Below, one piece after another: positions 6,598-28,180 of a stretch of DNA of 64,000 nt (position 1 is its first letter; each line of letters starts with the position of its first letter). Source of the DNA: Ailanthus altissimus (taxonomy: Eukaryota > Streptophyta > Magnoliopsida > Sapindales > Simaroubaceae); the NCBI GenBank assembly GCA_946807835.1, contig OX327710.1, positions 10,404,501 through 10,468,500 on the forward strand. The letters run 5' to 3'. The notes under the pieces were generated by a model. That model was not told the origin of the DNA. It searched no databases and saw only the letters and a list, made by a program, of their open reading frames with translations. A program made the translations under genes and the position numbers.

Positions 6598-7910
6598 TGA
6601 TAACGGCGTAAAAGCACTAGTGTTATTTACATCTAACTTTCATATTTTACTCTAAATCATAAATATTTGGCTATTTAATTATAATTTTTTTTATCATAAA
6701 TAGATTCACGATGGAAAATGTGACGCATATAAACAAATGAGAGTCGAATCAGACGTCAAATGAAGAATTACGCTCAAAATACAAAAGGGACACTAGGGCT
6801 GGGTGCCGCAGCGCCCAGCGACTTAGTGCCACGGCGTTCGTGGCGGTGAACAGTAACTAATGAATAGTATTTTACTACAGTAACCTTTGAATAGTAATTT
6901 GAAGACAAAAAAACCTATGAATAGAAGGCCAAAAATCCTAAGAAATGAGAGGAGAGAAAAAGAGAAAAAGAGAAAAAAAATAGGCAAAAACTTAGAGAGA
7001 ATTCACAACACAAATCGAAGATCAAAGCCAAAGATTAAAGAACCAAGATCAAGATTCAAGTTTCAAGTCAAGATTGAGGAAGAAGCACATCAAGGAGTCA
7101 CTTTAATTAGTTTTTCTTCTCTTTCTTTATCATGATGTTTTTTTTCTTGTTAATCTTTATAAATTGGTTTGATACTTTTAGTTTTGTGATAGGTTAATTT
7201 GTTCATCTAGGGTTAGACTATGTGAACTTAGTATGGATTTAGATTATGTTAAGTTTTAGTTTATGAACTTGATACATTCAATTGATTCATTTTATCTTAT
7301 GTTTAATGCTTTTATTATACCTGATCAATATTTTGAATGATTGAGGAATCATGATGAACTCGCTAGAGGGATTCATGTGTTTAGTTTAGGGTAGTTTGAT
7401 GTATGATCATAGGGTAACAACTATGAGTTCCATCTAGGATAGACATATACCTAGGTAGCATGTGTGGTATAATTTAGACTTGATCTTAATGAATTACATT
7501 CTAATTTGATTTTCATAGACATATAGATGATTGTTAGAATGCGTAATATAGTCACTTGACAATTGACAGAGGTTTGTAATGAGATTAGTGTCTAAGCCAA
7601 TAATTAGTATTAAAAGATTAACTAAGTGGTTAATGAGTCCAATGAAATACTAGGGGATGAGTCAAAACCATAGATTATTTTTATTTGTGAATTCTACTAT
7701 TTACTTTTATTTAGTTAATTGAGATAATTAGATTAGTTAAATAAATTTCAGATTTAAGTTTTCTGAATAAAAGTTAAGTAGGTACAATTTTAGTACTTGA
7801 TTTATAGAATTAGACCGCATAGTCTTTATAGGATCGATACTTGGACTTAAAATCCTATATTACTTGATATGATAGCGTGCACTTGTGCTTAACTAGTATA
7901 GCACCAATCA
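6598..7910 (+). repeat. Single Athila-type LTR (copy A, 1313 bp) inside the MULE
   Basis: It starts TGATAACGGCGTAAAAG and ends ACCAATCA, and matches the LTRs at 26866-28180, 33292-37380 and 41076-42124 along its whole length. No internal region remains; only AGTTTT, the first bases after an LTR of this family, precede the resumed MULE frame. The flanking pentamers (CCATA and AGTTT) do not match, so this was not a clean LTR-LTR recombination or the junctions have decayed. The 82-aa frame at 6887-7135 is chance. Confidence 0.8.
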
Positions 7911-8782: not shown

Positions 8783-8787
8783 CAAGG
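8783..8787. repeat. Target-site duplication CAAGG, left copy
   Basis: CAAGG abuts the left LTR here and the right LTR at 20796-20800, marking one clean insertion of the 12-kb element. Confidence 0.85.
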
Positions 8788-10225
8788 TGACACGTCCAGA
8801 ATATAGAAGTTATTCTCAAGTGCAGGATTGTCGAAGTAATAAATAACCCGATGAGAACGGGGTCGATCCACAGGGAAGTAGAATTAAAATTACAAATTAT
8901 AAACACTTTAAAGATAATTAATGCAGTATAAGATGTTTGTAAATATTATTTCAATTAACCAATTCAAATAAAAAGCTAAGGTTACGGGGATTCACTCTTG
9001 GCATAAGAAGTAAGAATATATTTAACTTTTTATTTTTTTATAACTCAATTGGAATCCTCACACAAAGGAGGTTCCAACCGGAAAATATAGCAATTAAAGT
9101 TCATTATCATTTATATATTGATTAGTATTTATTTCTTTCAATTATTATACACCAAATCTTATAAATGGGTTCAAGTATTTATTATGCCAATCTTTATATT
9201 TGTCTACAATAAATTAAGACTCCCACTTTATAAGAAAGGTTATATAAACCAAATCTTGTAAATGGTTTCAATAATTTATTGTGCCAAGTATTAAGTTTGT
9301 CAATAATAAATCAAGAATAACCACTTTAGAAGAAATGGTATTAATTCTACAAACAAAATAAATACATCATATATAAATTTACATAACTTAAAAATGAAGC
9401 ATTAAATTCATGAATAAATATTAAACATATCTTATTACCTTGCCAAGAGCTTCACCCTTTTACCTTAGCTTAAACAAAATTATTTGGACATAATAAAACT
9501 AAATAAAAAGAAAAGAAATGGAAGAAGAAATAACATGACTTAATAGTAAACAAGAGAAATAATAGTACAAGGAAATGGATATAAAGGAAAAGTATTTTGA
9601 ACTAAATTCTAACTTTCTAATTATATTATTTAGGCATAAACAAGCCACCTATTTATAGAAAAACATGGATAAATCGAGACAAATTTGGAGGGAACTACTT
9701 GGTTGATGAAAGTCAAGAATGGTGGCAAAATAATTTGCATTCATTATCACTTGGGCACCCACTTGATTATCCAATTTGGAATTGATGTGATCCGAATTAG
9801 CTGTCACTCAAAACATAAAAGTTATAGATAAGTCTCTTATCTTTCCAAATTGAGTGATCTCATACGTATTAGATACGTATTTCTATAGTTATGGGCCAAA
9901 TACTGATAACTGTTCAAACTGGGCCTGTACTGCAGATCAATTCTGTTCTAGGCTAATTTTCACCATCTAAACACTCGAATTTCCAATGCTTTGTGAAATA
10001 CAATATGTTAGCCCATTGAGTCCTCTCTGTACAGGATTAAGAATCACCTCAATTGGATCTTTAGGTAGAAAGTTATGCCCATTTTACCGAACCTGCCACA
10101 AAACAGTTATAAGATAATTAAGTACAATATTGTAAACATACTTAAGTTAAGAAAATTAAATACACTAGTAATACAAAACAATCATGTAAAACTCTTATTA
10201 AATGTGTAATTTCAAGCGTTCATCA
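8788..10225 (-). repeat. 3' LTR of the LOG element
   Basis: 1438 bp, TGATGA..TGTCA in sense. It carries a TATA box (sense TATAAATA at 9650-9657) and, about 205 bp further upstream, two ATACGTAT palindromes at 9862-9869 and 9873-9880. No coding frame of note. Confidence 0.93.
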
Positions 10226-10240
10226 CACCCCCCAACTGGC
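10226..10240 (-). other. 3' polypurine tract of the LOG element
   Basis: In sense GCCAGTTGGGGGGTG ends directly at the LTR start TGATGA, the expected place of the plus-strand primer. Confidence 0.8.
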
Positions 10241-10242
10241 TT

Positions 10243-10261
10243 ATTGCTAGTCCCTAGCAAT
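10243..10261 (-). other. Hairpin next to the polypurine tract
   Basis: Perfect 8-bp stem (sense ATTGCTAG / CTAGCAAT) with loop GGA, two bases upstream of the polypurine tract. The other Athila element has a stem of different sequence at the same place (41036-41055), which hints that the structure is conserved. Confidence 0.65.
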
Positions 10262-11437
10262 TCGAGCATAAATAAAATTTGAACACTACCTAAGTATTTC
10301 AAACAAAACGTCAGTTTTAAAATCACAATCGCTATAAAGGTTATTTCAATCATAACTTCCAAAAATATTTTTGTGTGTGTGTGAATTAAGCCAAAGCCTT
10401 CTTACCACTAACCACAACATATATAGCCTTAAAAATGTTCCAAGTAAAAGCCTCAACTCAATATCCTTACAGGTGAATAATTTGTTTAATGACTTAGGAT
10501 TTCACTCATGGAGTTGGAAAACAGATAATCGCTCAAGAAAAAGTTACATTTAAGGACAGACAGATAAACTAACATTGATCCAAAGATAGGAAAATCAAAT
10601 ATTTAGAGTCAAACCATTATTGTCAAATGCCAGCTTCAAGACTTTAATTATTTAATGCGAATCTTACGAATATAGAATTCGGTGATAAGATTGCTTCCTA
10701 ATGACTTTAGTCTTCTAAAATTGAATGAAGACTTTATTGAACTGAATTGACTTCTTTTCTTTCTTTTTTTTTTTTTTACTCTTTTTTTTAAAGACATAAG
10801 GAATCATTATAACATAAGAGCAATTTATCACCATAATACTTTTCTAATTTTTTTTTTATCCTTCAGCTAAGCAACCAAATCATTCATCATCCTAAATAAT
10901 GTCATTCCAAATAAAAATTAACCATTTCAAAGGATCAATGAAAGTTCGTAAGCTGTTATCTCAAACCTCTCCACTCACTCACAAAAGATATGTGAGTTTA
11001 GAAAATAATATATATACTTAAACATGGAAATTCTTTTGGCTATATATATTGAATCATCCATCTTACCACAAGGCTTAGTATTGTTCTCAAGAAATAATTT
11101 CAGAAGTTATTCTTTAGTAACCTAAATAGAGAAAGTGATTTAAACTAAACAATTTTGAAATCATACATCGATAGTAAAGCAAATTTATTTACGCAAGAGT
11201 TACCAAAAACTTAAGCAACAAACAATTATACATAAAATGCATTAAAAATAAACCAATTAGAATGTGTTTCAAAAGTTTATAATGTACTCTTTACTCTGCC
11301 ATTCTAGAACTAGAATGCGTCTCAAGAATACATAAATGAACATTTTACTCACGCCATTCATGATAATTTTTTTTTTGACATAACAAAGTGATAACAACAA
11401 CAAATAATTAACACTAACATTATATATCAACTATCCT
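10262..11437 (-). other. Untranslated 3' region of the LOG element, no gene
   Basis: About 1.2 kb of AT-rich sequence between the internal G-run and the terminal polypurine tract. I find no frame with coding character. Long untranslated stretches here are usual for Athila elements. Confidence 0.6.
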
Positions 11438-11472
11438 CCCCCCAACCAGATTGAGACATTGTCCTCAATGTC
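11438..11472 (-). other. Internal hairpin plus G-run (second polypurine-like module)
   Basis: In sense GACATTG-AGGA-CAATGTC (11472-11455) forms a perfect 7-bp stem with loop AGGA and is followed by CTGGTTGGGGGG. The pol-less Athila element has the same module at 39704-39740. The layout repeats that of the terminal polypurine tract. Confidence 0.65.
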
Positions 11473-11595
11473 AAAATATAGAAAGAGTAAAATATAGAAG
11501 ATATCACCTGAAACATCTTTTATTGAAAATTAAACCTGCAACAAAATAAAACAAGCCACACAAAAAAAGCTTAAAAATATATAGAAATAGATAGG

Positions 11596-12249
11596 CTACA
11601 GACGAAGCGTCAAATCTATCCTGCGTTTCTTTTCACTGTTATCAGTATACCAATCTATCCGACTCATTGTTGGATCAGATAGAGGTGTAAAAGCTTGTAG
11701 TTCATCGAGTAACTGATCAACAGTTGAAGCAGAAATGAGGATCTGTCGTGCTGCAGATGAGACGAATTGTTTTTCCACCGCATAGTCAAGAAAAGATAAC
11801 AACCCATTATAAAAACCATCAACGTTTAACAAACCAATGGGTTTTTTATGGATTTGCAATTGTGCCCATGAGACAATTTGAAAAATTTCCTCCAATGTTC
11901 CGAAACCTCCAGGTAGAGCTATGAAGGCATCAGCATTACGAAGCATAAAAGAAATTCGTTCATGCATTGATGATACCTGTAACTCATCCCCAATTGTTTT
12001 TCCTACAATGTCTCCAACAGCTAGAGCTTTTGGTATGATACCCAAAACTCGACTGCCATTATTTTGTGCAGCGGTTGCCACACGTCCCATTAATCCAAGA
12101 CTACTTCCCCCATATACTAAATGAATATTGCGCTCAGCTAACATCTTACCAAGGGTTTCTGCTGCTTCTATAAACTCACTAGTTTTTCCAGGGCTGGATC
12201 CACAAAAGACACAATTTTTTGTGAATTTACGAGTTGATGATCCTTCCAT
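11596..12249 (-). CDS. LOG-like: LOG-type cytokinin riboside 5'-monophosphate phosphoribohydrolase
   Basis: The 217-aa enzyme would split cytokinin nucleotide monophosphates into free active cytokinin and ribose 5-phosphate, the one-step activation route of plants, in cytosol or nucleus. Visible family marks are CVFCGSSPG (residues about 13-21), VYGGSSLGLMG (about 45-55), MHERISFMLR (about 98-107) and the nucleotide-binding PGGFGTLEE (about 114-122), followed by SWAQLQIHKKPIGLLNVDG. The length is normal for the family. I chose the ATG at 12249 because homologs start just before the CVFCGSS block; the frame is open upstream to 12312, but those 21 residues look like leader. Two oddities: the usual GGG of VYGGGS is GGS, and the Lys after the motif Arg is Ile. 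It is one uninterrupted exon, whereas plant LOG genes normally have several introns, so a processed copy was probably captured. It is in sense with the retrotransposon and has its own TATA box 66 bp upstream. Confidence 0.92.
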   Translation of the reverse strand: MEGSSTRKFTKNCVFCGSSPGKTSEFIEAAETLGKMLAERNIHLVYGGSSLGLMGRVATAAQNNGSRVLGIIPKALAVGDIVGKTIGDELQVSSMHERISFMLRNADAFIALPGGFGTLEEIFQIVSWAQLQIHKKPIGLLNVDGFYNGLLSFLDYAVEKQFVSSAARQILISASTVDQLLDELQAFTPLSDPTMSRIDWYTDNSEKKRRIDLTLRL

Positions 12250-12314
12250 GATTACACTCACCCTTTCTCTTGAATGATTTTGAGTTTGTACAAAGATGCA
12301 GAAATAATGCAATG

Positions 12315-12322
12315 TATTTATA
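12315..12322 (-). promoter_or_regulatory. TATA box of the LOG gene
   Basis: In sense CTCTATAAATACA is a consensus plant TATA box, 66 bp from the LOG start codon, placing a start near 12285 and giving a short leader. A CCAAT motif (AAGCCAATAGCC in sense) lies about 40 bp further upstream. No other ATG falls between the presumed start and 12249. The signal suggests expression independent of the LTR; no transcript data were available. Confidence 0.65.
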
Positions 12323-12606
12323 GAGCCAAAAGTTATTGCAAAGTTAAATCACATGGCTATTGGCTTGAAATACAAGATTCAATACCTTTTACTAATTTTC
12401 AATTTGTTAGCTGGAAAAGTCACATGGGTTGTCGGCTTAAAATGCAAAATTTTCAAAAAGGATTATAGGTGGTTGATTATTGAAAAGACATTTGAGTTTG
12501 AAATGAAACATTTAAAAATAACAGCTATAGTAAATATATACAAGTAGTTGTGATTGTGGCTCACATCTTCCTCTGATTTTACGTCCAGTAACGGCTTAAA
12601 CGCCCT

Positions 12607-13155
12607 CTATGGGTCGGGGATAGGCTTCCCATCCAATTTTCTTATAAATTGGCAAACAGGGTCTTTTAAAGTCAGATTCCCGAGACTGTACCGCTCATGT
12701 TCTTTTAGGAATATGTCCCATAATTCATGAATTGCAATATGCACATATCCACTAGGATGCGTCTCAAGAGTCGATAAGATATTATCTAAAGACTCCTTAC
12801 TCAGGCCATCCTTAATGAACCTAATTTTATCTTCACGATTTACAGACACCATTCCTAAAATGCGGCAACGTGTGTTGCAAGTCGTGCGTGCACACTTGTA
12901 ACAAACATTTAATCGTTTTGCTCTTCGTTTTTTTGAAAAAGAGCTTTTACCTAAGCCAGGCATGTAGGAAATTAATGAGTCTGAAAATTCACCTGTCAAT
13001 CTAACTTTGGCTTCAATTAACCAACGTAAATCAACAGGTATATTCATAATCATTAATAACCTTAATCTTTCACATCTTGCTTGGTAAATTTTCTTCAAGG
13101 AATTTTGAGGCAATGAGGGAAAACGCTTTTTCAAATTTTTTAGAATGTCATCCAT
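12607..13155 (-). CDS. Accessory protein 1: basic Cys-rich, putative nucleic-acid-binding protein
   Basis: An intact 182-aa frame of unknown function. It starts at an ATG in ideal plant context (AAAAAATGG) that is the first ATG after a strong splice acceptor at 13299. Residues about 76-86 are very basic (KKRRAKRLN) and run straight into CYKCARTTCNTRC, a CX2CX4CX3C cluster able to bind zinc. About 20 residues on comes KIRFIKDGLS. This order (arginine/lysine patch, Cys cluster, then a short F-I-(K/R)-x-G block) resembles the small Cys-rich nucleic-acid-binding proteins of carlaviruses, which act as silencing suppressors and pathogenicity factors. That likeness is at motif level only and judged by eye. 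The C-terminal 80 residues match nothing I know. It is not an env protein: I see no signal peptide or membrane segment. It sits between pol and LOG, same strand. Confidence 0.75.
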   Translation of the reverse strand: MDDILKNLKKRFPSLPQNSLKKIYQARCERLRLLMIMNIPVDLRWLIEAKVRLTGEFSDSLISYMPGLGKSSFSKKRRAKRLNVCYKCARTTCNTRCRILGMVSVNREDKIRFIKDGLSKESLDNILSTLETHPSGYVHIAIHELWDIFLKEHERYSLGNLTLKDPVCQFIRKLDGKPIPDP

Positions 13156-13298
13156 TTTTTTTTTAAGAAAAGGGGGAAGAAGAGAAGATATCAGTAATTA
13201 TGGGAAACTGACAAAACCGATTTAAAATATCACGGAGTACCGTTATCCGCCGCTTAACCGGGGTGCAAAATAAAACTTTAACAAAACTACTAAATTAA

Positions 13299-13330
13299 CC
13301 TGCAAGTAAAAAAAAAAAATGTTAGAAGAA
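13299..13330 (-). promoter_or_regulatory. Predicted 3' splice acceptor upstream of accessory gene 1
   Basis: In sense the order is TTCTTCTAAC (branch-site like), a run of 12 T, then ACTTGCAG with the exon starting at 13299. No ATG occurs between the acceptor and the gene start at 13155. The arrangement would give a spliced subgenomic RNA for accessory gene 1, as env is made in retroviruses. The matching donor was not identified. Confidence 0.55.
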
Positions 13331-13370
13331 GAATAAATATATATAAATATGTAAATATATAAAACAAAGA

Positions 13371-13697
13371 TTAATTGGTCTCGTAACAAGGATCCGACAA
13401 GAACGTAAATTCTTCATGAAAAGCTTGGTTTTCTAGAAACAGCTTGAGTCTTTGCCCATTTACCTTAAACACATTCCTATTTCTAGGATTTTCAATGTCA
13501 ATTGTTCCATAAAGGTACACATGTTTCACAATAAAAGGGCCACTCCATCTTGATCTTAATTTTCCAGGGAATATGTGAAGTCGAGAATTATAAAGCAAAA
13601 CCTTCTGACCAGTGTCAAATGTTTTTCTCTGAATTTTTTTTATCATAAAAGGCTTTAATTTTAGCTTTATGAATTTTTGAATTCTCATATGCATCAT
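13371..13697 (-). pseudogene. Integrase C-terminal part, shifted frame
   Basis: This frame carries the GPY/F-type tail of integrase (TGQKVLLYNSRL, then FPGKLRSRWSGPF) and ends pol. It overlaps the integrase frame 13615-14994 and takes over after a one-base slip at a T8 run near 13633-13640, so a homopolymer indel separates it from the rest of pol. Confidence 0.8.
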
Positions 13698-14994
13698 TTC
13701 TCAATTCTTCAAGTTCATTTATTTGTAATTTACGTATGTGTCCAGCAGAATCAAGATTTTCATTGAAAGTTTTAATAACCCAGTAGGCTTTATGCTCAAG
13801 TTCCACAGGTAAGTGACAAGGTTTTTCATAAACTATCCTATAGGGAGACATACCCAATGAAGTTTTAAAAGCAGTTCTATAAGCCCACAGTGCATCATTT
13901 AGTCTTAAAGACCAATCTTTGCGATTTGGGTTTACAGTTTTTTCTAAAATTTGTTTTATCTCCCTATTTGCTAATTCAACTTGTTCACTTGTCTGAGGAT
14001 GATAAGGGGTGGCAACTTTATGAGTAATACCATATTTTTTCACTAATGTTTCAAATGGTCTATTACAAAAATGCTTACCCCCATCACTTATAATGGTTCG
14101 AGGGATTCCAAATCGACTTAAGATATTTTCTTTCAAAAATTTCATAACTGTTTTATGGTCATTATGTCGACATGGAATAGCCTCAATCCATTTTGAGACA
14201 TAATCTACTGCAACTAAGATATACGTAAATCCAAATGATAACGAAAATGGTCCCATGAAATCTATCCCCCAACAATCAAAGATTTCAATAACAAGAATGG
14301 GGTTCAAAGGCATCATGTTTCGTTTTGAAATTGATCCCAACTTTTGACAATTTTCACAAGTTATACAAAATGCATGTGTATCATTAAATAAAGTAGGCCA
14401 ATAAAATCCACACTGTAAGATTTTTGCAGCTGTTTTCTTTGATGAGAAATGTCCCCCACATGCTTCAGAATGACAAAATTCAATAACTTTATTTACCTCA
14501 TTGTCGGGTATGCATCTTCGAAATATTTGATCACGACAATATTTAAAGAGATAAGGATCATCCCAATAAAACTTTCTCACCTCCGTTAAAAATTTTCTTT
14601 TGTCTTGAGCATTCCATTGAGGTGGCATTTCTCCTGTTATAAGAAAATTAACAATATTAGCATACCAGGGCATTGTAACAGTAGAAAATAAAAATTCATC
14701 GGGAAAAGAATCATTAATAGGTGTTATTTCTGTTGATGAATCTGGTGTGAGTCTTGATAAGTGATCTGCAACAACATTTTCAGCTCCTTTCTTATCCTTG
14801 ATAGTGATAATAAATTCTTGAAGCAATAGAATCCATCGAATCAGTCTTGGTTTTGCATCCTGTTTTGACATTAAGTACCTTACAGCAGCATGGTCAGTAA
14901 ATACAATAGTTGAAGAACCAATTAAGTAAGAACGAAATTTGTCTAATGTAAATATTACAGCAAGTAGTTCTTTTTCAGTTGTTGTGTAATTCAT
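13615..14994 (-). pseudogene. RNase H end and integrase of the LOG element
   Basis: It is in the same frame as the upstream gag-RT reading frame and separated from it by one stop codon (15055-15057) and 20 sense codons. It holds the rest of RNase H ([20 protein letters not shown]), the zinc-binding HHCC region ending in CITCENC, and an integrase core with all three catalytic residues visible: [15 protein letters not shown] and the Glu of QVELANREI. The domain itself looks intact; the frame then breaks at 13615 by a one-base shift. Confidence 0.85.
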
Positions 14995-15054: not shown

Positions 15055-18000
15055 TTATCCTAATACAGCACCAACAGCGTAGTCACTAGCATCACACATG
15101 AGCTCAAAAGGTAAAGACCAGTTAGGAGATTGTATGATAGGAGCAGATGTTAAGAGGCCAATTAATTTTTCAAATGAATTTTGACACTCTTGAGTCCACT
15201 TAAATGATACATCTTTTGCTAAGAGGTTACAAAGAGGTTTAGATATAGCACTAAAGTTTTTTATGAACCTCCTATAGAATCCAGCATGTCCTAAAAAGGA
15301 TCGGACTTCTCTGGCTGTTTTTGGTGGAGGCAAATGTGTAATGAGTTCGACTTTTGCCTTATCCACTTCAATTCTTTTAGAAGATACTATATGTCCCAAA
15401 ACAATTCCAGAAGTAACCATGTAGTGACATTTTTCCCAGTTCAATACAAGACTCTTTTCTTCACATCTTTTTAAGACCTTTTCTAAGTTTTCAAGACAAT
15501 TATCAAAAGAATTTCCAAACACAGTTAAATCATCCATGAAAACTTCTAAATAATGCTCAATCATGTCACTAAAAATGCTTAACATACATCTTTGAAATGT
15601 TGCTGGGGCATTACAAAGTCCAAAGGGCATTCTTCTAAAAGCAAAGGTTCCAAAAGGACATGTGAATGTAGTCTTTTCTTGGTCTTCTAGTGCTATAGGA
15701 ATTTGATAATAGCCAGAGTAACCATCTAGAAAGCAATAGTAGGGATGTCCTGCTACTCTTTCTATAATCTGATCAAGGAATGGTAAAGGAAAATGGTCTT
15801 TTCTAGTGGCCAAGTTCAATTTTCTATAATCTATGCACATCCTCCAACTAGATGAGACTCGAGTTGGTATTAACTCACCTTTTTCATTTTCAATGACTGT
15901 GATTCCAGATTTTTTTGGTACTACCTGAGTAGAACTTACCCACTTACTATCTGAGATCGGATAGATAATTCCTACTTCAAGTAATTTGAGAACTTCAGCT
16001 CTCACTACCTCTTTCATATGTGGATTTAATCTCCTTTGAGGTTGTTGGGAAGTTTTGGCATTATCCTCTAGGTGTATTCTATGTGTGCAAATCAAAGGAT
16101 TAATACCATTTATGTCTTTTAAAGTCCACCCAATTGCATTTTTATGCATTTTCAATAATTCAATCAACTTATCTTCTTGTTCACTTGTGAGTGTAGAAGC
16201 GATTACCACCGGGTAAGTTTGTTTCTCTCCAAGAAATGCATATTTCAGTCCTTCAGGCAGAGGTTTTAACTCCAACTTTGAAATTTTGTTCTTTTTATCC
16301 TCATTTTCTCCCAATTCTTCAAACTTTAGTTTCCATCTTTTATTTTCAATCACCTGTGCACAGTCAAGTAAAGAACATATGTCAGAGATTTCAGGATCTA
16401 ATTGTATATTTGACTCAAATGAATTTATTAAACACATTTCTAAGGGATCGGTAGAACTCCCTTTTTGAATATGATCCTCCACAATCGTTTCAATCATGTC
16501 ACCTTCTTCACTTTCATCCTCCTCTTCATATGGTTGCTTACACATATTAAAAACATTGAGTTTAAGTGTCATGTTTCCAAATGAAAGCTTCATTACTCTA
16601 TTCCTGCAATTAATCAAAGCGTTAGAAGTTGCTAAAAATGGACGACCTAAAATAACAGGTATCGGATTACATCCTTTGACAGGTTCTGTGTTCAAGACGA
16701 TAAAATCCACAGGATATATGAATTTATCAACTTGAACTAAGACATCCTCCATTGTCCCTCTTGGTACTTTTATTGATCTATCAGCAAGTAAAAGAGTTAC
16801 AGATGTTGATTTTAACTCCCCGAGATTGAGCTGCTGATAAACTGAATACGGCAATAAATTCACACTAGCACCAAGATCAAGTAAGGCTTGTTTAATTTTA
16901 TGACTTCCAATAATACATGAAATTGTAGGACAACCAGGGTCTTTATATTTCAAAGAATTATTGTTTTGAAGAATGGCACTTACTTGTTCAGCTAAAAATG
17001 CTTTTTTTTTCACATTCAGTTTTCTTTTTACTGTGCATAAGTCTTTCAAAAATTTTGCATAAGATGGAACTTGTTTAATAGCATCCAGTAAAGGAATATT
17101 AACTTTTACCTGTTTGAAGATTTCAAAAATTTCAGGATTGTGATTCATCTTCTTAGTATTACGTAATGCATGAGAAAATGGGGGTGGAGGTGAAGGTTTG
17201 GTGTTTTCTTCATTAAGTGTAGGTTCAACACTTTCCTTGCCCTTAGAGATTGATTCATCGCTCTCATGAGGTTCAGGAATTTTTTTTTCAACAATTTTAC
17301 CACTCCGAAGAGTGATAACTGCTTTAACTTGATCCATGTGTTGGCTTCCTGAACTACATGCATTTGAGTTATGTTGTCCTTTGGGGTTTGGCTGTGGTTG
17401 AGAAGGAAATTTTCCTTTCTCATGAATGTTCAGTGCAGATGCAAATTTAGCAAGAGTATCTTTCAAATCAGCAAATGTTTGAGCATTTTGAGAATTAACA
17501 GACTCTTGTTTTTCAATGAATGTATGCAAGGTTTCTTCAAGATTTTTCCTAGGAGGTGGGACATATGGTGCATAACCTTGATGATTTTGAAAGTTTTGGT
17601 GTGGTTGGAAAGGTGGTTGCGAAGCCTGTGCTTGAGTGTCATTCCTCCAACTAAAATTCGGGTGATTTCGCCATCCAGGATTATAGTTTTGTGAATATGG
17701 GTTATTGTTTGACCATTTGAACGTGTTTAAAACATTGGCTTGTTCATGGAGACATTCCCTAAATGCAGGCAAAGTTGGGCAATCATTGGTAGGGTGATCA
17801 TGGGTTTCACAAATGTGACACACAATTTCTTGAACAGATTTTATTTGACCACTCTTTTTCATTTCTAAGGTTTCGACTTTTCTAGCAAGGGATGCTAATT
17901 TGGCTTGAAGGTCATGGTCTTCCTTAAGATGATAAATACCCCCACTAGATGTAGTGGTTTGATTTTTGCTAGGTGCCTCACAGGTACCAGCAGTGTTCCA

Positions 18001-18804
18001 ATTTTGAGCATTTTCTGCTAGTAAGTCAAGATAGTTCATTGCCTCTTCTGGGTCTTTTTCCTCAAATGTTCCATTACACATCATTTTTACCATTTGCCTA
18101 ACTTGGGGTGTTAAGCCCTCATAGAAATTTGAGACTACTCTCCATGTTTCAAAACCATGATGGGGACAGGTATTAAGTAATTCTTTATACCTTTCCCAAC
18201 ATTGGTAAAGGGTCTCTCTTGGTTTTTGGGCAAAAGTGGTGATTTGTCTTTTGAAAGAATTTGTTCTATGGGAGGGAAAAAACTTTTTCAGGAATTGTTG
18301 TTGCATCTCGTCCCATAAAGAAATGGATCCTGGCCTAAGGTTTTGTAGCCATGTTTTAGCTTTATCTTTTAAAGAAAAAGGGAAAAGCTTAAGTCGAATT
18401 GTGTTCATGCTACAATTTTGATCATTATACGTGTTACACACTTCTTCAAATTCTCTTAGATGTAGATAAGGGTTCTCTGCATCTAAGCCATGAAAAGTGG
18501 GTAAAAGTTGGATAATGTCTGGCTTAAAATTAAAATGCGTTGCATCCGGTGGAAAAATTAAGCAAGATGGTGCACCGGTTTGTGTAGGGTTCATATAGTC
18601 TCTAAGTGTCCTAGGTCGGTTATGGTCATTATGTTGGGACTGATTGTCCCCTGGGTCTATGAGTCCCTCAATTTGATTTTCGCTCATGGTGTTACTTGGT
18701 GAAGAATGAGAAGATAAAGGAGAATCTAACAAATTATCAAAGGAAGTTTTGAAATTACCTTTTACTAAACGATGAGAATTAGGATCTCGAAACCAACCGC
18801 TCAT
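15055..18804 (-). CDS. Gag-protease-reverse transcriptase polyprotein (Athila)
   Basis: The open frame runs from 18885; I take the ATG at 18804 (MSGWFRDP) as start because the 27 residues before it are a run of hydrophobic translation from the AT-rich leader. In order: the Retrotrans_gag region (FHGLDAENPYLHL to about residue 270), a knuckle CHICETHDHPTNDC (CX2CX4HX4C), an aspartic protease with DLGASVNLLP, and a reverse transcriptase with the FMDD catalytic box and PFGLCNAPATFQ. The RNase H start (CDASDYAVGAVLG) is followed by a TAA where relatives have a Gln codon, so one C-to-T change ends the frame. Apart from this stop and the later frameshift pol looks competent. Confidence 0.9.
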   Translation of the reverse strand: MSGWFRDPNSHRLVKGNFKTSFDNLLDSPLSSHSSPSNTMSENQIEGLIDPGDNQSQHNDHNRPRTLRDYMNPTQTGAPSCLIFPPDATHFNFKPDIIQLLPTFHGLDAENPYLHLREFEEVCNTYNDQNCSMNTIRLKLFPFSLKDKAKTWLQNLRPGSISLWDEMQQQFLKKFFPSHRTNSFKRQITTFAQKPRETLYQCWERYKELLNTCPHHGFETWRVVSNFYEGLTPQVRQMVKMMCNGTFEEKDPEEAMNYLDLLAENAQNWNTAGTCEAPSKNQTTTSSGGIYHLKEDHDLQAKLASLARKVETLEMKKSGQIKSVQEIVCHICETHDHPTNDCPTLPAFRECLHEQANVLNTFKWSNNNPYSQNYNPGWRNHPNFSWRNDTQAQASQPPFQPHQNFQNHQGYAPYVPPPRKNLEETLHTFIEKQESVNSQNAQTFADLKDTLAKFASALNIHEKGKFPSQPQPNPKGQHNSNACSSGSQHMDQVKAVITLRSGKIVEKKIPEPHESDESISKGKESVEPTLNEENTKPSPPPPFSHALRNTKKMNHNPEIFEIFKQVKVNIPLLDAIKQVPSYAKFLKDLCTVKRKLNVKKKAFLAEQVSAILQNNNSLKYKDPGCPTISCIIGSHKIKQALLDLGASVNLLPYSVYQQLNLGELKSTSVTLLLADRSIKVPRGTMEDVLVQVDKFIYPVDFIVLNTEPVKGCNPIPVILGRPFLATSNALINCRNRVMKLSFGNMTLKLNVFNMCKQPYEEEDESEEGDMIETIVEDHIQKGSSTDPLEMCLINSFESNIQLDPEISDICSLLDCAQVIENKRWKLKFEELGENEDKKNKISKLELKPLPEGLKYAFLGEKQTYPVVIASTLTSEQEDKLIELLKMHKNAIGWTLKDINGINPLICTHRIHLEDNAKTSQQPQRRLNPHMKEVVRAEVLKLLEVGIIYPISDSKWVSSTQVVPKKSGITVIENEKGELIPTRVSSSWRMCIDYRKLNLATRKDHFPLPFLDQIIERVAGHPYYCFLDGYSGYYQIPIALEDQEKTTFTCPFGTFAFRRMPFGLCNAPATFQRCMLSIFSDMIEHYLEVFMDDLTVFGNSFDNCLENLEKVLKRCEEKSLVLNWEKCHYMVTSGIVLGHIVSSKRIEVDKAKVELITHLPPPKTAREVRSFLGHAGFYRRFIKNFSAISKPLCNLLAKDVSFKWTQECQNSFEKLIGLLTSAPIIQSPNWSLPFELMCDASDYAVGAVLG

Positions 18805-19333
18805 AAAAAGAAACAAAACAAAATACAATAACAATAATACAAATAAAATATTAAACACAGGTAAATAAAATAAAATATTACACACAAGTAAATAAAATAT
18901 GTAAAACTAAAAGCAAAATAAAGATAAATAATTAGAAGTTAGATTAGTGATGTTAGATTATATAATAAAAAGTTAATAAATAAATAGTAGGAGGCTTAGC
19001 CTTCCATTAAAATAAAAAGCGAAAATAAAAGGCGAATAATAAATAAAGTAAAGTACGTTAGGAGGCTCGGCCTTCCATGAAAATTAAAAAAAAAAACTAA
19101 AAGAAAAAGTAAAAAAAATAATAAATAAACGAAATAAAGAGTAGGAGGCTCAGCCTTCCGCGAAAATAAAAACAGAATAATAATAAAGTACGTTAGGAGG
19201 CTCGGCCTTCCATGAAAATAAAAAAAATTAAAAAATAAAAAAAACGAATAATAAATAACGAGTAGGAGGCTCAGCCTTCCATGAAAATAAAATAAACAAA
19301 CAAACAATAACAAAACAAAATATTAACGTTACC
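18805..19333 (-). other. 5' leader of the LOG element with five hairpin repeats
   Basis: An AT-rich leader between PBS and gag. Five copies of an 18-bp unit lie at 18990-19007, 19061-19078, 19144-19161, 19196-19213 and 19265-19282. In sense each reads close to ATGGAAGGCYGAGCCTCC, which folds as GGA(A)GGC/GCCTCC with a three-base loop. Two copies spell ATG followed by five codons and a stop (MEGRAS), two spell MEG and stop, and one has lost the ATG (GCGG). A packaging, dimerisation or translation-control role is possible. Confidence 0.7.
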
Positions 19334-19351
19334 TCCCCGGCAATGGCGCCA
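19334..19351 (-). other. Primer binding site, tRNA-Asp type
   Basis: In sense TGGCGCCATTGCCGGGGA lies six bases after the 5' LTR. It differs at one base from the tRNA-Asp complement typical of Athila elements. Confidence 0.8.
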
Positions 19352-20219
19352 AAAACTTGACACGTCCAGAATATAGAAGTTATTCCCAAGTGCAGGATTG
19401 TCGAAGTAATAAATAACCCGATGAGAACGGGGTCGATCCACAGGGAAGTAGAATTAAAATTACAAATTATAAACACTTTAAAGATAATTAATGCAGTATA
19501 AGATGTTTGTAAATATTATTTCAATTAACCAATTCAAATAAAAAGCTAAGGTTACGGGGATTCACTCTTGGCATAAGAAGTAAGAATATATTTAACTTTT
19601 TATTTTTTTATAACTCAATTGGAATCCTCACACAAAGGAGGTTCCAATCGGAAAATATTGCAATTAAAGTTCATTATCATTTATATATTGATTAGTATTT
19701 ATTTCTTTCAATTATTATACACCAAATCTTATAAATGGGTTCACGTATTTATTATGCCAATCTTTATATTTGTCTACAATAAATTAAGACTCCCACTTTA
19801 CAAGAAAGGTTATATAAACCAAATCTTGTAAATGGTTTCAATAATTTATTGTGCCAAGTATTAAGTTTGTCAATAATAAATCAAGAATCACCACTTTAGA
19901 AGAAATGGTATTAATTCTACAAACAAAATAAATACATCATATATAAATTTACATAACTTAAAAATGAAGCATTAAATTCATGAATAAATATTAAACATAT
20001 CTTATTACCTTGCCAAGAGCTTCACCCTTTCACCTTAGCTTAAACAAAATTATTTGGACATAATAAAACTAAATAAAAAGAAAAGAAATGGAAGAAGAAA
20101 TAACATGACTTAATAGTAAACAAGAGAAATAATAGTATAAGAAAATGGATATAAAGGAAAAGTATTTTGAACTAAATTCTAACTTTCTAATTACATTCTT
20201 TAGGTATAAACAAGCCACC

Positions 20220-20227
20220 TATTTATA
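20220..20227 (-). promoter_or_regulatory. TATA box in the 5' LTR
   Basis: In sense TTCTATAAATAGG is a consensus TATA box, conserved in both LTRs (9650-9657 in the 3' copy). Confidence 0.65.
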
Positions 20228-20431
20228 GAAAAACATGGATAAATCGAGACAAATTTGGAGGGAACCACTTGGTTGATGAAAGTCAAGAATGGTGGCAAAA
20301 TAATTTGCATTCATTATCACTTGGGCACCCACTTGATTATCCAATTTGGAATTGATGTGATCCGAATTAGCTGTCACTCAAAACATAAAAGTTGTAGATA
20401 AGTCTCTTATCTTTCCAAATTGAGTGATCTC

Positions 20432-20450
20432 ATACGTATTAGATACGTAT
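20432..20450 (-). promoter_or_regulatory. Paired ACGT-core palindromes in U3
   Basis: ATACGTAT-TAG-ATACGTAT, two palindromic boxes 11 bp apart, unchanged in both LTRs. TACGTA is the A-box form of plant bZIP sites; one helical turn of spacing would put two dimers on one face. Confidence 0.45.
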
Positions 20451-20795
20451 TTCTATAATTATGGGCCAAATACTGATAACTGTTCAAACTGGGCCTGTAC
20501 TGCAGATCAATTCTGTTCTAGGACAATTTTCACCATCTAAACACTCGAATTTCCAATGCTTTGTGAAATACAATATGTTATCCTATTGAGTCATCTCTGC
20601 ACAGGATTAAGAATCACCTCAATTGGATCTTTAGGTAGAAAGTTATGCCCATTGTACTGAACCTGCCACAAAACAGTTATAAGATAATTAAGTACAATAT
20701 TGTAAACATACTTAAGTTAAGAAAATTAAATACACTAGTAATACAAAACAATCATGTAAAACTCTTATTAAATGTGTAATTTCAAGTGTTCATCA

Positions 20796-20800
20796 CAAGG
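20796..20800. repeat. Target-site duplication CAAGG, right copy
   Basis: Matches 8783-8787 exactly. Confidence 0.85.
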
Positions 20801-26865: not shown

Positions 26866-28180
26866 TGATAGGGGCCTAAAACCATTAATATAATTTATAC
26901 CCAACTTTCGTATTTTACTCCAAATCATAAATATTTGGCTATTTAATTGTGGTTTTTGATCATAAATAGATGCACTATGGAAAATGTGACGTATAAGAAC
27001 AAACGGGAGGTGAATCGAATGTGAAACGAAGAAGTTATGCTCAAAATACGAAAGAGGCATCAGGCCAGCGACTGAGCGCCGCGGCGCTCGTTATGGTAAA
27101 TAGTATCTGGGAATAGCATTTGCTACCGTACCTATGAACAGTATTTTTGCTACAATAACTCGTAAATAGTATTTTGAAGACAAAAACCTATAAATAGAAG
27201 GCCAAAAACCCTAAGAGGAAGGAGAAGAGAAAAAGAGAGAAAATAGAGAAAAACTAAGAGAGATAATTCACAACACAAGATCAAAGATCAAAGCCAAAGA
27301 TTGAAGAACCAAGATCAAGATTCAAGCTTCAAGTTAAGATTGAGGGAGAAGCACATCAAAGAGTCACTTTGATTAGTTTTTCTTCTCTTATTTTTATCAT
27401 TATATTCTTTTTCTTGTTGATCTTTATGAATTGGTTTGATACTTTTGGATTTGTGATGGATTAATTTGTTCATCTAGGGTTAGACTATGTGAACTTAGTA
27501 TGGATTTAGATTGTGTTAATTTTTAGTTTATGAACTTGATACATTCAATTGATTCATTCTATTTTGTGTTTAATGCTTTCATTATACCTGATCAATATTA
27601 TGAATGATTGAGGAACCATGATGAACTCGACGGATGGATTCATGTGTTTCGCCTAGGATAGTTTGATGCATGATCATAGGGTAACAACTATGAGTTCCAT
27701 CTAGGATAGACATATACCTAGGTGGTATGTATGGTATAATTCAGACTTGATCTTAATGAATTACATTCTGATTTGATTACCATAGACATATAGGTGATTG
27801 TGAGAATGCGTAATACAGTCACTTGACCATCAACAGAGGCTTGTGATGAGATTAATGTCTAAGCCAATCAATTGGTATTAAGGAATTAACTAAGTGGTTA
27901 ATGAATTCAATGAAATACTAGGGGACGAGTCAAAATCCTAGATTATCTTTATTTGTGAATTCTACTATTTACTTTTGTTTAGTTAATTGATAGACTTAGA
28001 TTAGTTAAATAAATTTCAGATTATGATTTTTTGAATAAAAGTTAAGTAGGCATAATTTTAGTACTTGATTTATAGAATTAGATTGTATAGTTCCTGTGGG
28101 ATCGATATCTAGACTTAAAATCCTATATTACTTGATATGATAGCGTGCACTTGTACTTAGCTACTATAACATACCAATCA
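26866..28180 (+). repeat. Solo Athila-type LTR (copy B, 1315 bp) in Tat gag
   Basis: TGATAGGGGCC..ACCAATCA, full-length member of the family of copies A, C and D. The flanking pentamers are GCTAG (26861-26865) and GCCGG (28181-28185); they differ by C-to-T and G-to-A at one CpG, as expected when a methylated duplication decays. Removing LTR and duplication restores the gag reading across the junction. Confidence 0.85.

Follow-up and report, generated by a model that had tools for sequence, protein, structure and literature searches.

A LONELY GUY-like gene and a homologue of flexivirus nucleic-acid-binding proteins carried by an Athila-type retrotransposon of Ailanthus altissimus

Introduction

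Plant LTR elements may contain additional ORFs, which are often heterogeneous and of unclear use. Ty3/gypsy elements of Citrus and Populus contain YgdH/LONELY GUY domains (Steinbauerova 2011, as cited in PMC9289625). Moreover, Ty3/gypsy elements of orchids carry an AlkB-type m6A demethylase that is active in vitro (PMC9289625). One large survey applied a length filter under which an extra ORF had to span 250 codons or more. Such a filter is blind to both of the cargo genes described here and, therefore, cassettes of this type may be common and overlooked.

Here, we describe an LTR element located in a 64,000-nucleotide stretch of the Ailanthus altissimus genome (contig OX327710.1, positions 10,404,501 to 10,468,500; hereafter the window). 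Its two cargo genes encode a LOG-like enzyme and a Cys-rich protein (NABP). A LOG-type domain on a plant Ty3/gypsy element is shared with the Citrus and Populus cases, as these are described in the passages of PMC9289625 devoted to them; the same passages mention neither a viral-type NABP, nor an own promoter, a pocket change, selection or a family devoid of gag-pol. With the orchid elements, as presented in that source, the common point is a flexivirus-like accessory function as cargo of plant Ty3/gypsy, whereas the enzyme and the element lineage differ and activity was shown in vitro there. Thus, LOG cargo on plant Ty3/gypsy elements is already known, whereas a sequence-only reading of the window was aware of no described Athila family with this cargo. 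As to the viral-type partner, among open-licence PMC papers, none was found that links Carla_C4/Viral_NABP to retrotransposons in a relevant way.

Structure and lineage of the element

The element is 12.0 kb long and lies on the minus strand (Table 1). Its LTRs are 98.3% identical in an ungapped alignment, with 24 differences over 1438 bp (16 transitions and 8 transversions; K80 divergence 0.0169). A TGGCGCC primer-binding site, putatively of the tRNA-Asp type, is situated 6 bases internal to the 5′ LTR. In the window copy, and unremarked in the sequence-only reading, pol is broken by one in-frame stop separating the RT and integrase parts and by a frame change close to its end. Unlike pol, both cargo ORFs are open. 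The LOG ORF reaches upstream of the likely ATG, to position 12312 (ORF 11596-12312). Because their positions fall in sense between pol and the polypurine tract, both cargo genes are inside the element. This agrees with the sequence-only reading, which had placed them within a single element bounded by matching LTRs and an exact CAAGG duplication, as cargo and not as neighbouring host genes.

Table 1. Coordinates of the element and its parts in the window.
Feature	Position	Strand	Basis
Target-site duplication CAAGG, left	8783..8787	.	exact
3′ LTR	8788..10225	-	LTR-LTR comparison
3′ polypurine tract, adjoining LTR end 10225	10226..10239	-	read from letters
Second, internal polypurine-like tract, directly past LOG	11435..11449	-	read from letters
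LOG-like phosphoribohydrolase, 217 aa from likely ATG at 12249, intronless	11596..12249	-	PF03641
CTCTATAAATAC, conserved TATA box of LOG	12314..12325	-	upstream alignment
Cys-rich protein (NABP), 182 aa, Viral_NABP/Carla_C4 homologue	12607..13155	-	ORF + Pfam
22-nt leader block, conserved in families A and C	13230..13251	-	upstream alignment
ORF in different frame, read as final part of pol (frame change)	13371..13697	-	without own Pfam match
RNase H (end) and integrase (zinc-binding and core domains)	13615..14994	-	ORFs + Pfam
Gag, protease, RT and RNase H (start)	15055..18885	-	ORFs + Pfam
Primer-binding site TGGCGCCATTGCCGGGGA	19334..19351	-	read from letters
5′ LTR	19358..20795	-	LTR-LTR comparison
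Target-site duplication CAAGG, right	20796..20800	.	exact

Pfam searches identified gag, protease, RT, RNase H, H2C2 and rve domains, in the order gag-PR-RT-RH-INT; RNase H and H2C2 are some 100 residues apart. No Pfam match in the element was obtained for a chromodomain, for the second (archaeal-type) RNase H that marks Tat elements or for the Athila ORF-1 domain PF03078. Since PF03078 is an optional feature, present in 16% of Athila elements, its lack is not disqualifying. By its domain order and content, the element fits an Athila-type Ty3/gypsy retrotransposon.

Copies, families and selection on the cargo

Three families were distinguished: A, to which the window element belongs; C, which is diverged and has a gag-pol of its own; and B. 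Both cargo genes were found in 40 of 40 LOG-anchored copies of family A, and 9 of the 10 copies anchored on NABP also contain LOG, the sampled copies being drawn from best-scoring lists in which intact ones are favoured. All of the 150 NABP matches scored were full length and 139 were without stop. Family C, whose gag-RT is 58% identical to that of the window family, has the cargo genes in the same order as family A. The occurrence of the block in all the sampled family-A copies anchored on LOG and in family C excludes a one-off retrogene insertion, the outcome that the sequence-only reading had considered fatal to its proposal. In family B, LOG is kept and the Cys-rich gene is absent, and no gag-pol was detected at 3 loci; the NABP and LOG pair is thus not obligatory. 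A 397-aa ORF of family B, which has no Pfam match, was set aside as an orphan (one match only, 98% identical). It can be noted that the flexivirus-type NABP, the LOG TATA box and a family that has LOG only, without detected gag-pol, all go beyond what had been noticed in the window sequence at first.

Between families, both cargo genes are under purifying selection, with dN/dS of 0.19-0.21 for NABP and 0.16-0.32 for LOG in comparisons where dS reaches up to 1.8. The pN/pS ratio is 0.23 for the family-B LOG and only about 0.5 within family A. Close pairs from a single family, with very few differences, show no constraint (for example, window copy versus L012, LOG 1.76; L074 versus L075, NABP 1.98 and LOG 0.90). 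It could be imagined that the two genes are passengers, derived from the host, trapped in the 3′ region and functionless for the element. The family-A ratio, the uncertain use of extra ORFs in general and the interruption of at least one cargo ORF in 13 of the 40 sampled copies (script's criterion) would be in line with this. However, the low between-family ratios at such dS values, the maintenance of LOG in family B in spite of undetected gag-pol and the conservation of the LOG TATA box argue against such passengers, an explanation that is already disfavoured and appears very unlikely. The TATA box is common to families A, B and C, and the remaining upstream region aligns poorly. Because this box is conserved across three families, it suggests that LOG probably has its own TATA promoter.

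The Cys-rich protein

The window NABP matches PF05515 with 30.9 bits (cut-off 23) over residues 39-125 and scores below the cut-off of PF01623. The family-C protein exceeds both Pfam cut-offs (33.5 and 28.5 bits). When the window NABP and 36 chosen relatives were considered, 31 of these 37 proteins matched each Pfam family at E≤0.01. Some relatives fall under one or both cut-offs. The protein has a basic stretch and then C-x2-C-x4-C-x3-C. The order is that of the flexivirus NABP/CRP proteins (Carlavirus, Allexivirus, Mandarivirus; PF01623, PF05515), in which a four-Cys motif also comes after a basic stretch. The loop of the finger is shorter than in the carlavirus Potato virus H (C-X2-C-X9-C-X4-C). 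In contrast with its viral counterparts, the element protein sits on a retrotransposon, and its suppressor activity is putative.

The AlphaFold model of NABP is of low confidence (pLDDT 61.8). Among 30 Foldseek matches obtained from this model, six were named flexivirus NABPs or silencing suppressors, none significant alone. The top row was a flexivirus 15-kDa protein, presumably the NABP of that virus. No match at E≤0.001 was found in the Foldseek viral search, none at E≤1 among solved structures, and a scan of IMG/VR with the NABP alignment returned zero relatives. As judged from its Pfam matches, the Cys-rich protein is a homologue of the flexivirus nucleic-acid-binding family. Upstream of the gene, an RNA hairpin in the conserved 22-nt leader block was without support, and a splice-acceptor-like string was dropped: family C lacks it, and copy L012 has it in altered form.

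Several viral members of the family are reported RNA-silencing suppressors, and p12 of Chrysanthemum virus B is a transcriptional activator that causes hyperplasia. Alternatively, the similarity to viral proteins may reflect nucleic-acid binding only, NABP serving the element directly, either as a chaperone of its RNA or as a nucleocapsid-like factor that packages it, and not as a suppressor. The presence of Cys and basic residues in the conserved core of the NABP alignment and the weak score of the family-C gag for a zinc knuckle would fit a packaging role. Against it speak the extension of the viral similarity past the finger, the suppressors reported among viral members and the existence of family B without NABP; we consider it unlikely.

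The LOG-like enzyme

The window LOG matches PF03641 (E 4.7e-40); the element enzyme is over the PF03641/TIGR00730 cut-off and contains PGGxGTxxE and the catalytic Arg and Glu. These motifs, the fold family and the pocket Trp are common to the plant enzymes AtLOG3 and AtLOG8, from which the element LOG differs in being intronless and element-borne, in forming its own clade and, in the window copy, in the replacement of Lys100 by Ile and of Glu125 by Gln. A phylogeny with only three host rows groups the element LOGs in one clade separate from host LOGs (support 99/97).

The sequence-only reading took this LOG to make free cytokinin. If the element LOG were an ordinary cytokinin-activating enzyme, free cytokinin would go up and element-bearing cells would divide, the Cys-rich gene being secondary. 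The catalytic residues are indeed kept in most of the 123 element LOG rows (Arg in 117, Glu in 121), Trp129 is kept in all of them, the identity to AtLOG3 is 50% and the gene is under purifying selection. Moreover, both Lys100 and Glu125 are retained in 11 rows, including all seven named Xanthoceras entries among the matches listed. Against this, both charged pocket residues are replaced in 111 of the 123 rows, window included, whereas the five reference LOGs all keep them. The score with the NCBI cytokinin-LOG equivalog model, taken without a host LOG as control, is 126, far under the cut-off of 300. We regard an ordinary LOG as rather doubtful; the catalytic residues are kept but, because of the 111 rows with both charged residues replaced, the designation 'cytokinin-activating' is not established. 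CgLOG lost nearly all of its activity upon alanine changes at what the source passage calls 'these crucial residues' for the binding of AMP; the binding residues include Lys100, the individual mutants not being spelled out in that passage. The altered pocket could mean that LOG activity was lost.

Discussion

The explanation that we favour, with a probability of roughly 45%, is that an Athila-type lineage inherited a two-gene host-manipulation cassette made of NABP and a re-tuned LOG. In such a cassette, NABP would most likely bind nucleic acid; its basic stretch may direct nuclear entry, and the protein may weaken RNA silencing and/or alter transcription. The intronless plant-type LOG, probably transcribed from its own TATA promoter, has kept the phosphoribohydrolase catalytic pair, and its base pocket would be re-tuned. 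Therefore, its substrate would probably be another nucleotide, N6-modified or otherwise, or its preference would be altered. The joint effect would benefit the element by bringing about a cell state more permissive for its transcription, for instance through less silencing together with an altered cytokinin/nucleotide status of dividing cells. The gene content, the number of copies, the selection, the promoter motif and the residue changes are observations; the suppression of silencing, the substrate and the benefit for the element are inferred from them.

In the usual view, retrotransposons depend passively on lapses in host silencing and on host development. The present data suggest an element that manipulates the host cell in a virus-like way. 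A more speculative reading, which we consider less likely than not, is that plant retrotransposons and plant RNA viruses share an anti-silencing gene pool. In this reading, the Athila lineage would have a flexivirus-type suppressor together with an own-promoter LOG of new substrate preference, and a derived family lacking its own gag-pol would persist via LOG, acting on hormones or nucleotides to help the element and not the host. With a lineage in which purifying selection maintains both a homologue of viral suppressors and a hormone/nucleotide enzyme, active host manipulation by plant transposons would become directly testable via two small proteins, and the coupled pocket change offers a natural experiment for LOG substrate specificity.

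Anatomy of the element

The window contains an Athila-type Ty3/gypsy LTR element of 12,008 bp (family A) on its minus strand, bordered by CAAGG at both ends, with primer site and polypurine tract at the expected places. Using Pfam, the order gag-protease-RT-RNase H-integrase was recognised, the protease weakly, and the pol of this copy has one in-frame stop and a frame change close to its end. The two cargo genes named in the sequence-only reading, a LOG-like phosphoribohydrolase gene (LOG) and a Cys-rich gene (NABP), are real: both are in sense orientation, placed after pol and before the polypurine tract, and both ORFs are open. At usual plant substitution rates (~0.5-1.3e-8 per site per year), an age of roughly 0.65-1.7 million years follows from the LTR divergence. 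The element is enclosed by an older repeat pair (85% identity between the two). These repeats are probably the LTRs of another element that was the target of its insertion; partial copies of this repeat are also found elsewhere in the window. A sub-threshold snoR71 match antisense to gag (33.5 bits; gathering score 40) is probably due to chance.

Features of the window
Feature	Position	Strand	Remark
LTRs of the element	8788-10225 and 19358-20795	-	24 differences in 1438 bp, K80 0.0169
LOG	11596-12249	-	no introns
GGTGAG before the LOG ATG	12257-12262	-	splice-donor-like
NABP	12607-13155	-	
Block in the NABP leader	13230-13251	-	22 nt
snoR71 match	18152-18260	+	
Hairpin array, primer site to gag	18990-19280	-	five copies (GGAAGGCYGAGCCTCC)
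Older repeat pair	6598-7910 and 26866-28180		
Partial copies of the older repeat	between 33292 and 42124		

Copies in the host genome

The host genome (939,062,666 bases, 37 contigs) was searched with both genes; 150 of 4943 LOG candidates and 150 of 4890 NABP candidates were scored, so that copy totals are lower bounds. The 150 scored NABP matches all cover the full length with 98-100% identity; 139 contain no stop. The search for the block in other copies, proposed from the sequence alone, recovered the pair repeatedly. NABP is carried by each of the 40 type-A copies fetched from the best LOG matches. Both genes are open in 26 of these, only LOG in 10, only NABP in two and neither in one; in the remaining copy NABP is open and LOG is open from its ATG. 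One "broken" NABP in this sample is free of stops but contains an out-of-frame stretch. In a second sample, anchored on NABP (10 matches not on the LOG list), LOG is in place in nine copies (four open, five broken) and was not found in the tenth. In four of the ten (L076, L081, L082, L083) the LOG reading frame breaks at a common point near codon 156, which suggests that a subfamily with a broken LOG has multiplied.

Related families and selection on the cargo

Family C, represented by the two loci L074 and L075, possesses a gag-pol of its own, pieces of which are about 58% and 72-73% identical to the window's, and carries the cargo in the same order as family A (NABP 75%, LOG 63% identical). 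Family B carries LOG (about 72% identical) and a 397-aa orphan ORF; neither NABP nor gag-pol was found when three loci of 9.9 kb were compared with the window's proteins. Of 19 further family-B copies, 15 have an open LOG, and none shows NABP within the 2.2 kb fetched. The LTR-type loci with this ORF and LOG (L009, L010 and L013, the last a tandem array) have terminal repeats longer than 2 kb; at two loci, the 2.2 and 2.6 kb compared are 99.8-100% identical. In the LOG tree, A pairs with B (98/97), whereas the 3' non-coding region is 79-82% identical between A and C (LOG about 74%). Thus, modules were probably exchanged between families.

The leader of the window element carries five copies of a small hairpin ahead of gag. 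At the corresponding place, family C (L075, about 250-800) has an array made up of different letters. Of five hairpins folded, four share a shape of three pairs, a one-base bulge, three pairs and a triloop; taken singly, the hairpins show no unusual stability. The array may serve packaging or dimerisation.

Ahead of the LOG ATG, families A, B and C have an identical CTCTATAAATAC, at -76, -71 and -63 respectively (one copy compared from each), in a region that otherwise aligns poorly. A 13-mer common to A and C was reached in none of 500 mononucleotide shuffles, and one common to B and C in two of 500. TATAAATA is found at 71 of 74 LOG starts (loci fetched by then, some overlapping). Conservation of a TATA box amid poorly aligning sequence suggests that LOG is transcribed separately. 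The GGTGAG string is present in most aligned copies of the three families.

For LOG, dN/dS is 0.16-0.18 between A and C, where silent sites are near saturation, 0.27-0.32 between A and B, and 0.20-0.29 between B and C; for NABP it is 0.19-0.21 between A and C. Close pairs inside families scatter from 0.12 to 2.0, with few differences. Among frames picked for being open, pN/pS is 0.23 for LOG inside family B (136 pairs), and 0.52 for LOG and 0.47 for NABP inside family A, where recent differences make weak evidence. A rival reading is that LOG and NABP are passenger cargo.

The LOG enzyme

The window LOG belongs to PF03641/TIGR00730 and shares 50% identity with Arabidopsis LOG3. In a tree of 27 rows, one branch (99/97) splits 22 element-type LOGs (three from the window and loci; 19 chosen from the 120 matches listed and classed by similarity) from three host and two bacterial LOGs, the separation that the sequence-only reading had proposed to look for. 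Two Xanthoceras proteins, P0126 and P0127, absent from this tree and assigned to the element clade by similarity, are gene models with a fused piece of gag-RT polyprotein, which indicates that they are element-borne.

The residue comparison covered 123 rows of element type: 119 from the 120 matches listed, a Thalictrum host LOG being set aside as a reference, and four from the window and loci. Of the catalytic residues, Arg is present in 117 and Glu in 121; Trp129 is present in all, Lys100 in 11 and Glu125 in 12. Both latter residues are replaced in 111 rows, both kept in 11, with one mixed; all five reference LOGs have both. In the portion consulted of work on CgLOG, these two residues are assigned to the adenine/prenyl pocket, and activity is almost lost when the AMP-binding residues are changed to alanine (PMC4979012). 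Judging from these residues, catalysis looks kept and the base pocket re-tuned. Ordinary cytokinin activation is a rival reading; the gene had been called cytokinin-activating, and the catalytic residues agree with this, but with Lys100 and Glu125 replaced such activation is not established.

The NABP protein

The window NABP (182 aa) scores 30.9 bits with Viral_NABP (PF05515; curated cut-off 23) and 18.4 bits with Carla_C4 (PF01623), under the cut-off of 20.9; the family-C protein is above both (33.5 and 28.5 bits). Each profile is matched at E<=0.01 by 31 proteins in a scan of 37, made up of the window NABP and 36 relatives chosen from the 120 matches listed. The conserved core includes a Lys/Arg-rich stretch followed by C-x2-C-x4-C-x3-C. 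A Foldseek search with a low-confidence model gave no match at E<=0.001; six of its 30 rows named flexivirus NABPs or silencing suppressors. The top row, also short of that threshold, was a 15-kDa protein, the NABP of Cherry mottle leaf virus. A 22-nt block in the NABP leader is strongly conserved between A and C, with no support for an RNA fold.

In the extracts consulted, nucleic-acid binding and RNA silencing suppression are described for the NABPs of Potato virus H (PMC3689765), mandariviruses and others (PMC12172455). Chrysanthemum virus B p12 is a transcriptional activator in the nucleus and a suppressor in the cytoplasm (PMC7588395), and induces hyperplasia (PMC12172455). Because this viral relative itself drives cell proliferation, the pairing with LOG is suggestive. 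Alternatively, NABP may be an RNA chaperone.

Possible role of the pair

Anatomy, multi-copy inheritance, selection, the TATA box, and catalytic residues kept with pocket residues replaced are what the analysis shows. In the likeliest reading of the mechanism, NABP would weaken silencing or alter transcription, LOG would act on a nucleotide monophosphate, possibly other than the usual cytokinin precursor, and both would help the element to be expressed or to spread.

Ty3/gypsy elements with LOG-type (YgdH) domains are already on record from two Citrus species and from Populus (PMC9289625, citing a 2011 paper). In Neumann 2019, extra ORFs were, according to the part consulted, counted only from at least 250 codons (PMC6317226), a threshold that would exclude both LOG and NABP here. 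Among the papers listed by a search of open-licence PMC articles, none reported a viral-type NABP partner. LOG-type cargo is known in kind; the NABP partner is surprising and testable, and the LOG enzyme is apparently re-tuned.
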